From positions 1 through 64,000 of the forward strand of contig JAIOYZ010000018.1 of NCBI GenBank assembly GCA_021740845.1: 64,000 nucleotides of DNA. Direction: 5' to 3'. Positions 14,765-15,872 of this stretch are shown here, in pieces. Below the pieces are notes generated by a model. That model did no database searches, was not told the DNA's origin, and saw nothing but the letters and a program-made list of their open reading frames with translations. The translations under genes were made by a program, and so were the position numbers. Source of the stretch: Bacteroidia bacterium (lineage in GTDB: Bacteria; Bacteroidota; Bacteroidia; UKL13-3). How positions within the stretch are numbered: the first letter of the stretch is position 1; every line of letters starts with the position of its first letter.

Positions 14765-14942
14765 CTGTCCCGAAATAATTTATAAATTTCCCTAAGGGTC
14801 AGCTAAACAAGAGTATCGAATTATTTTGAAAAAATGGCTGATTCCCAAAAAATTATTGGAAAGTTCACAAATGGGCGCAGAAAAAAAGTGTGTTTATTCA
14901 ACTGTTAACCATTCTTCTCCAACTTAATTCTGCTCACATTTA

Positions 14943-15116
14943 TTGGACGTTGGTTAGTCGTTGGGTATTAGTCTTTGGTCTTTGGCATTGTAAAAAATCA
15001 AAGGGTGTTGGCCTTGTCAACCGAAGCTTTAGCGTAGGTTGGCTGTTGGCCTTGTCAACCTGAGCTTTAGCGTAGGTTGGCTGTTGGCCTAAAGACCAAA
15101 GACTAAATCCTAAAGA
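14943..15116. repeat. Heptad repeats flanking a duplicated 17-mer element
   Basis: From 14943 to 14984 the sequence runs in 7-base units (for example GTCTTTG twice at 14971-14984). From 15089 to 15116 the reverse-complement type appears (CTAAAGA, CCAAAGA, CTAAATC, CTAAAGA). Between them lies a direct duplication of about 40 bases containing GAAGCTTTAGCGTAGG or a variant (15021-15040 and 15060-15080). The two heptad stretches form an inverted pair around the duplication. The rest of the gap from 14765 to 14942 shows nothing I can name. Confidence 0.7.
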
Positions 15117-15180
15117 CCTTTTCGGGCTACAGGCATTGGCACTTTATAAGAATGGATAACTGAATTTGAATTCAAAAAAA

Positions 15181-15204
15181 AAGCTTCACATTTCTGTGAA
15201 GCTT
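15181..15204 (-). terminator. Terminator hairpin, module copy 1
   Basis: AAGCTTCACA-TTTC-TGTGAAGCTT is a perfect 10-bp stem. On the minus strand it is followed by a run of T residues, as expected for intrinsic termination. Confidence 0.8.
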
Positions 15205-15389
15205 TCAAAATATCGCAAGCCCGTAGGACGGCTGAGCGTTAAAAATTGATTCGGGGGACGGCTGAGCGTTAAAAATTAATTCGGGGAATCAATTTAGCGA
15301 AGAGCGTGACCGTGGGGCGGGCCCTCCCCTTCGGGCTACAGGCATTGGCAATACTTAAGAATGGATAACCGAATTTGAATTCAAAAAAA

Positions 15390-15413
15390 AAGCTTCACAT
15401 TTCTGTGAAGCTT
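15390..15413 (-). terminator. Terminator hairpin, module copy 2
   Basis: Same perfect 10-bp stem and T-run as the copy at 15181-15204. Confidence 0.8.
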
Positions 15414-15569
15414 TCTGAAATATCAGTAGCCCGTAGGACGGCTGAGCGTTAAAAATTGATTCGGGGAATCAATTTAGCGAAGAGCGTGACCGTGGGGCGG
15501 GCCCTCCCCTTCGGGCTACAGGCATTGGCACTATTTAACAATGGAGAACAAAATTTCAAAACAAAAAAA

Positions 15570-15593
15570 AAGCTTCACATTTCTGTAAAGCTT
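15570..15593 (-). terminator. Terminator hairpin directly after tRNA-Glu
   Basis: The same hairpin with one arm changed to TGTAAAGCTT (one mismatch), 13 bases after the tRNA 3' end and followed by a T-run. It is the first terminator met by the tRNA transcript, and the weakest of the three stems. Confidence 0.8.
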
Positions 15594-15605
15594 TCTGAAT
15601 GCCTG

Positions 15606-15677
15606 TAGCCCGTAGGGGAGTCGAACCCCTCTTTAAAGAATGAAAATCTTTTGTCCTAACCGATAGACGAACGGGCC
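15606..15677 (-). tRNA. tRNA-Glu (anticodon TTC)
   Basis: The minus strand folds as a 72-base cloverleaf. The acceptor stem is GGCCCGT/ACGGGCT with a G-U pair at the end, the D arm contains CTATCGGTTAGGA, the anticodon arm is AAAGA-TTTTCAT-TCTTT giving TTC, and the T arm is AGGGG-TTCGACT-CCCCT. CCA is not encoded. It is followed by an array of terminators and modules that copy its 3' end. Confidence 0.95.
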
Positions 15678-15872
15678 ATCATTTTTGGGTTGGCAAAAGT
15701 AGGAATATTTTTTAAAAAGCAAAATATTTTTTTCGAAAAATTAAAAAAAGTGTGGAATAGGGCTTCCAATTAGGCCATTTATCTTAATTAATTGGATATA
15801 AAGCTAAGTAAAAACATCCTAGGAGGCAGACTCAACAAAAGAAACGCTTATAATCCTGCATTACCGTGCTTT

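Follow-up and report, generated by a model that had tools for sequence, protein, structure and literature searches.

The window analysed here is a stretch of 64,000 nucleotides from an uncultured, lake-type Bacteroidia bacterium. All features of the array described below are read on its minus strand. The array opens with tRNA-Glu (TTC) (15677-15605) and its trailer; terminator 1, module 1, terminator 2, module 2 and terminator 3 follow in turn, and the left arm of a third module comes last. The tRNA is recognized by ARAGORN and by Rfam (tRNA, 56.8 bits), and a pattern scan places its -7 box, TACTTTTG, which is of the Bacteroidota type (TAnnTTTG), at 15694-15701. Its 3' end, CCTACGGGCTAC (15605-15616), is the segment copied by the modules. 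Terminator 1 (15567-15596) lies directly behind the tRNA trailer, while terminators 2 (15387-15416) and 3 (15179-15206) lie behind modules 1 and 2, respectively. All three are near-identical hairpins of 12-13 bp with T runs, of the AAGCTTCACA type, and four terminator-like sites are found in the whole region compared with 0.9 in shuffles. The initial annotation had described modules with closing arms, tail copies and terminators behind this tRNA, and the sequence confirms this layout, including a terminator of the same type behind each module. Its view of terminator 1 as weak is only mildly right, the energies being -14.5 kcal/mol for terminator 1 compared with -16.7 and -16.0 kcal/mol for terminators 2 and 3.

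Each module is framed by two copies of the tRNA end in opposite senses. The left arm, whose origin had been overlooked, is an inverted copy of the T arm and acceptor 3' strand of the tRNA together with the trailer (22/23 positions), and the right arm is a direct copy of the tRNA tail. The left arms of module 1 (AATGCCTGTAGCCCGAAGGGGAG, 15504-15526) and module 2 (15324-15346) both form inverted repeats of 96% identity with 15598-15620. In module 1, the core hairpin occupies 15434-15495 and the right arm, at 15426-15437, matches the tRNA end CCTACGGGCTAC at 12 of 12 positions, with the closing arms GTAGCCCG/CGGGCTAC pairing exactly. In module 2, the core with its first right half occupies 15255-15315, and the right half is present twice, as 30-bp tandem copies (15227-15286, direct repeat with a spacing of 30) of which the second starts at the inner hairpin's tip (CCCCGAATC). 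The closing arms of this module are GTAGCCCG/CGGGCTTG, and its right arm (15216-15227) is a degenerate tail copy, CCTACGGGCTTG. The third module is truncated to its left arm (AATGCCTGTAGCCCG, 15123-15137, an inverted repeat of 100% identity with 15598-15612), which is followed by unrelated sequence. The 164-nt unit recurs at a spacing of 180 bp with 93% identity between copies, the third copy being more diverged. Beyond the truncated module, at 15003-15078, there are two 38-bp tandem copies (GGCTGTTGGCCTTGTCAACC..AGCTTTAGCGTAGGTT) enclosed by a 27-nt inverted repeat (arms 14957-14983 and 15091-15117), which form another short palindromic repeat.

Internal folding, which had been claimed for the modules in general, is seen in module 1, which folds better than 200 of 200 shuffles (z -3.3). 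For module 2, which contains the duplication, some shuffles fold at least as well (z -1.2). The tRNA and module 1 taken together fold with a z of -7.6, and in this fold the left arm pairs with the tRNA tail. ARAGORN and Rfam find tRNA-Glu alone in the window and no tRNA fold in the module bodies, which agrees with the earlier remark that the bodies do not resemble a tRNA.

The constant part of the module is a 62-nt hairpin built in two steps from two helices. Two covariance models were made, R1 for the whole module and R2 for the core. R1 matches module 1 over 15426-15520 with 110.3 bits and ends its match to module 2 at 15216, and R2 gives 83.1 bits for the core of module 1 and 69.1 bits for that of module 2. 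In an alignment of 16 core sequences, where the inner stem is about 10 bp long, 86% of the cells are paired compared with 24-43% when the strands are slid, 40 cells have changed on both sides, and the covariation score is 0.43 compared with 0.13 or less when slid. The outer helix varies in full, as CAATGC/GCATTG, CAAGGC/GCCTTG, TTGAAGC/GCTTCAA or CGCCCGC/GCGGGC. Lack of conservation of the closing stem in relatives had been named in advance as a reason to abandon the initial reading; the stem is both conserved and covarying. R1 matches 17 of the 64 genomes of the order, which comprises this family alone, so that the same 64 genomes stand for both. In the class, which was scored with strict filters so that the counts are lower bounds, R2 matches at least 21 of 395 genomes, corresponding to at least 16 of 196 genera. 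In the genome studied here R2 has two matches, both of them the window modules. In one genome (G138:C13:193, locus L179), three cores stand in a 70-bp tandem with no tail copies between them, so amplification of the core alone also occurs.

The same module is present behind tRNA-Glu in congeners G002, G003, G011, G012 and G013, as a half module in G009, and in genera g2, g7 and g9. Since gapA, as read from its translation, lies divergently upstream in several of these carriers, the locus is the same. The arms follow the tRNA: in g2, where the acceptor stem of tRNA-Glu is GGTCCGT/ACGGACTA, the module arms have changed along with it to GTAGTCC or GTAGTGC paired with GGACTAC. Units within one genome are almost identical (identical in G057, one base apart in G011), units of different species diverge by 15-25%, and the copy number ranges from half a module to at least six units, with many congeners having none. 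The serial duplication that had been suggested for the window is therefore supported. Behind some arrays an old terminator-like sequence is found displaced. Metagenome bins of uncultured bacteria, varying in completeness, account for the named carriers of the tRNA-Glu form, so that arrays may be misassembled at contig ends.

Genes are found among or behind the units in some relatives. In G044, rpsO directly follows tRNA-Glu and the site is unoccupied; in its congener G024, modules and three toxin-antitoxin-like gene pairs stand before rpsO, in an array split over two contigs, with the end of one and the start of the other inside it. These pairs (L086, 343-973, 1205-1839 and 2113-2671) lie among cores and resemble MNT/HepT, PIN and MazF/PemK systems, the gene names in both genomes having been read from translations without a family search. 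Behind the array of G035 (L087, 1-3330) there are an MNT-like gene and a long reverse AIPR-like phage-resistance gene, likewise named by reading the sequence, which suggests a putative defence spot behind tRNA-Glu in that genome.

The core is not confined to tRNA-Glu. A covariance search of relatives and other tRNA genes, as the initial annotation had proposed, finds it behind tRNA-Glu, Phe, Lys and Arg in family f37 and behind tRNA-Leu in G037, where its orientation is flipped and the tail copy is on the opposite side. What follows the core is, in the cases that could be scored, a repeat of the local tRNA end, with scores of 11-12 for Glu, 9.5 for Phe, 15 for Lys and 11.5 for Arg compared with mostly 3-7.5 against unrelated tRNAs; the tails of tRNA-Glu and tRNA-Arg are themselves alike, and the tRNA-Phe module of G231 runs off its contig and was left out. 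The left side of the modules behind these other tRNAs contains an inverted T arm. In all, seven tRNA loci are occupied beyond the tRNA-Glu locus of family f1, among about thirty loci. Since the zone within 300 bp behind tRNA genes presumably makes up well under 1% of such genomes, chance is a poor explanation for these seven. A neighbouring tRNA-Ser in G069, which is 276 nt away from the core and has no tail copy, was left out of the count.

Copies are also present at sites unrelated to tRNAs. In family f41 (G205 and G234), the core sits where a coding gene ends, flanked on both sides by 80-bp direct copies of that gene end. In family f14 (G186), two inserts containing the core are found within the terminal repeats of a CRISPR array. 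The 164-bp insert has TTTTAGTGGAT on both sides, an 11-bp duplication, and the other is bounded by TTTTAGTGGAT with one change in the left copy. The array concerned (L126, G186:C8) is very long, with more than 70 repeats of GTCTTAATCCTTGTTTTAGTGGATGTGGTGCTCTGAC, and it is the degenerate repeats at its end that hold the inserts. At several other dispersed copies no flanking repeats were seen. In G101, an AbiH-like gene (L085, 826-1995) lies between two cores that have non-tRNA arms and are part of a larger dispersed repeat; the three copies near this gene were rejected as cassettes because of these arms and the dispersed flanking repeats.

On balance, and with modest confidence, the modules are best regarded as copies of a small non-autonomous, REP/MITE-like mobile DNA palindrome that has been tandemly amplified in gene tails. 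The element would settle in the zones behind genes, above all at tRNA 3' ends, where it would become framed by the local gene tail, with an inverted copy on the left and a direct copy on the right. The unit of tail, terminator, inverted tail and core would then be amplified in tandem. Since every copy would restore the tRNA end and its terminator, the tRNA gene would be left unharmed and the array tolerated. Movement would depend on an enzyme supplied in trans, either a recombinase or a transposase, that acts on folded single strands of DNA. The inverted tail may serve to zip the core and the neighbouring tail copy into one long hairpin, which could promote excision and duplication. The inverted copy of the target tail would be accounted for if the terminator hairpin led to fold-back copying, or if a long closing stem were under selection. 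As is characteristic of MITE-like elements, copies are found with target duplication at unrelated sites (CRISPR repeats, a gene end and several tRNAs). Counting against a mobile element are the inverted copy of the target tail, which known transposition routes do not explain, the low copy number in this genome, the several dispersed copies that are not flanked by repeats, and the failure of the searches described below to find a linked transposase or recombinase.

The gene-bearing arrays bring to mind integrons, in which case the tRNA tail would be a docking site, the module a folded single-strand site like attC, and the stretch from tail to tail an exchangeable cassette that is usually empty. 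The tandem units with a folded, site-like hairpin resemble cassette arrays, toxin-antitoxin-like pairs are interspersed with modules between tRNA-Glu and rpsO in G024, MNT-like and AIPR-like genes follow the array of G035, and displaced terminator-like sequences occur behind some arrays. In addition, in cassettes 1 and 2 of G037 and cassette 1 of this genome, the start of the cassette is complementary to the cassette's own left arm, as a circularised cassette requires. However, the left arms of modules 2 and 3 in this genome do not match their own trailers, the breaks at the toxin-antitoxin genes fall inside cores rather than at clean cassette ends, and most units have no gene. The arms, GTAGCCCG/CGGGCTAC in module 1, follow the local tRNA and differ from the closing GTTRRRY/RYYYAAC of attC. 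An integron integrase above the TIGR02249 cut-off is found in one of 34 genomes and is not linked to the array; this true integrase (307 bits, G000:C58:1439-2378) is in the genome studied here, outside the window and on a different contig from the modules. We therefore consider an integron-like system unlikely. A recombination system other than an integron, which would dock at tRNA 3' ends, take folded single-stranded hairpins for its cassette sites and build arrays able to carry toxin-antitoxin or defence genes in Bacteroidota, appears quite unlikely. An origin from a phage or plasmid was also considered and rejected, as matches were to tRNAs only and the exact right-arm pattern did not occur in viral contigs.

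The modules might instead act as RNA, either as small RNAs of module plus terminator made by read-through from tRNA-Glu, as the initial annotation had suggested, or through an inverted tail that regulates tRNA maturation by pairing with the 3' half. The constant orientation behind tRNAs, with tRNA-Leu as the one exception, would suit such a role, as would the terminator after each unit, the strong joint fold in which the left arm would sequester the tRNA tail, and the complementarity that is kept even though the trailers change between species. However, a scan for TAnnTTTG boxes on both strands of 14900-15800 finds only the box of the tRNA itself, so that the modules have no promoter of their own, and a terminator of -14.5 to -16.7 kcal/mol stands upstream of each module. 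RNA structures are expected to tolerate G-U pairs. In the core helices there are 9 G-U compared with 11 A-C among some 670 paired cells, the A-C count leaving out one mostly A-C column, whereas the tRNA-Glu stems of 18 sequences from the same loci have 29 G-U and 0 A-C; because the comparison treats related rows as independent, it is to be read as a sign rather than a measured probability. The promoter scan and the missing G-U excess suggest that the hairpin is maintained at the level of DNA. That it does form in DNA is suggested by breaks and joins at the inner hairpin tip in module 2 of this genome, in G026 and in G024. Furthermore, many congeners have no module, other copies lie within CRISPR repeats and elsewhere, and no Rfam family reaches its gathering score in the modules, lax thresholds giving chance sub-threshold matches only; BTnc231, the best bacterial match to a module, was rejected as an identity at 22.5 bits compared with a cut-off of 80.4. 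Read-through small RNAs are thus not supported, and we give a functional RNA of either kind little probability.

Kinship with established families of palindromic repeats, either the REP sequences of the TnpA-REP (RAYT) class or the CGTC class, is suggested by several features. Like GTAG-tagged REPs and REPINs, the core is a short, non-autonomous extragenic DNA palindrome behind genes that is sometimes clustered; its complement starts with GTAG or GGAG, and the given strand ends with CGTCC or CCTCC. Atypical REP-like structures flank TnpA-REP genes of subclass 2.6 in Bacteroidetes (PMC6006769). The CGTC-tagged repeats, which occur in Bacteroidetes and for which no associated transposase was found, have a stem of 8-9 bp with a 4-5-nt loop, adjoining the tag, and a CCA-like tail (PMC3733652); the core, which ends with CGTC or CCTC, shares with them the host group and the missing transposase. 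The details differ, however. The core is 62 nt long with two helices and has a low copy number. Its GTAG/GGAG is about 15 nt from the inner stem, where REPs have GT[AG]G directly 5' of the hairpin, and in family f1 it coincides with tRNA tail sequence. Its CGTC-like end is some 8-14 nt from the inner stem, with a strand of the second helix between. Among Y1 transposases, the candidate autonomous partners whose neighbourhoods were compared, 30 PF01797 loci from genomes with and without the element all lack a core within 1.5 kb, three carriers (G037, G052 and the half-module G009) have no PF01797 match, and the presence of these genes does not follow that of the hairpin. Finally, the arms reproduce the tail of the local tRNA or gene in both direct and inverted form, and neither PMC3733652 nor PMC6006769 describes such tail copying for REPs. 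Membership in either class is highly doubtful.

A purely local scar, left at the tRNA tail and terminator by slippage during replication and by fold-back copying, without any mobile element, would fit the near-identity of tandem units within a species, the inverted trailer copies expected of fold-back synthesis and the breakpoints at the hairpin tip, but it leaves unexplained why an identical type of core recurs at many loci, behind different tRNAs and in different families, and is very improbable.

The mobile palindrome remains to be compared with two further arrangements at tRNA genes. Elements integrated into tRNA genes between attL and attR resemble the array in that the tRNA 3' end is duplicated as a direct repeat at both ends, as seen from the tail-copy matrix and the displaced flanks, with the tRNA left intact and an older terminator displaced. 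The units of the array, in contrast, are 140-180 bp long, too short for an integrase gene, have an inverted tail copy in addition, and no linked enzyme, their own or mobilising, was found. The integration scar at the tRNA gene offered by the initial annotation comes nearest the mark of its ideas, since an apparently mobile core recurs at several tRNA genes, within CRISPR repeats and where a coding gene ends, although the array does not look like a one-off scar; its interpretation as a whole is partly supported. The tyrT locus of Escherichia coli, with its 178-bp repeats and rtT RNA, is also a case of tandem repeats behind a tRNA gene that each repeat the tRNA 3' end. That array is at a single locus and we know of no conserved hairpin core that moves from it between tRNAs, whereas the modules described here are found behind many tRNAs and have inverted tail copies. 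No description of tail-copying palindromes was found in the open-access text searched.

The array therefore looks like a tiny mobile element of a kind that has been little described, and not like a scar left by a single event. The sequence of small palindromic repeats is usually fixed throughout, whereas here the core is fixed and the arms are borrowed from the local tRNA or gene tail. Such borrowed arms, direct and inverted, offer a clear and testable hint that DNA is inserted or copied at gene ends in an unusual manner. The covariance model can be used by others to find such hairpins, and the core marks unstable positions behind tRNA genes at which defence genes may accumulate.
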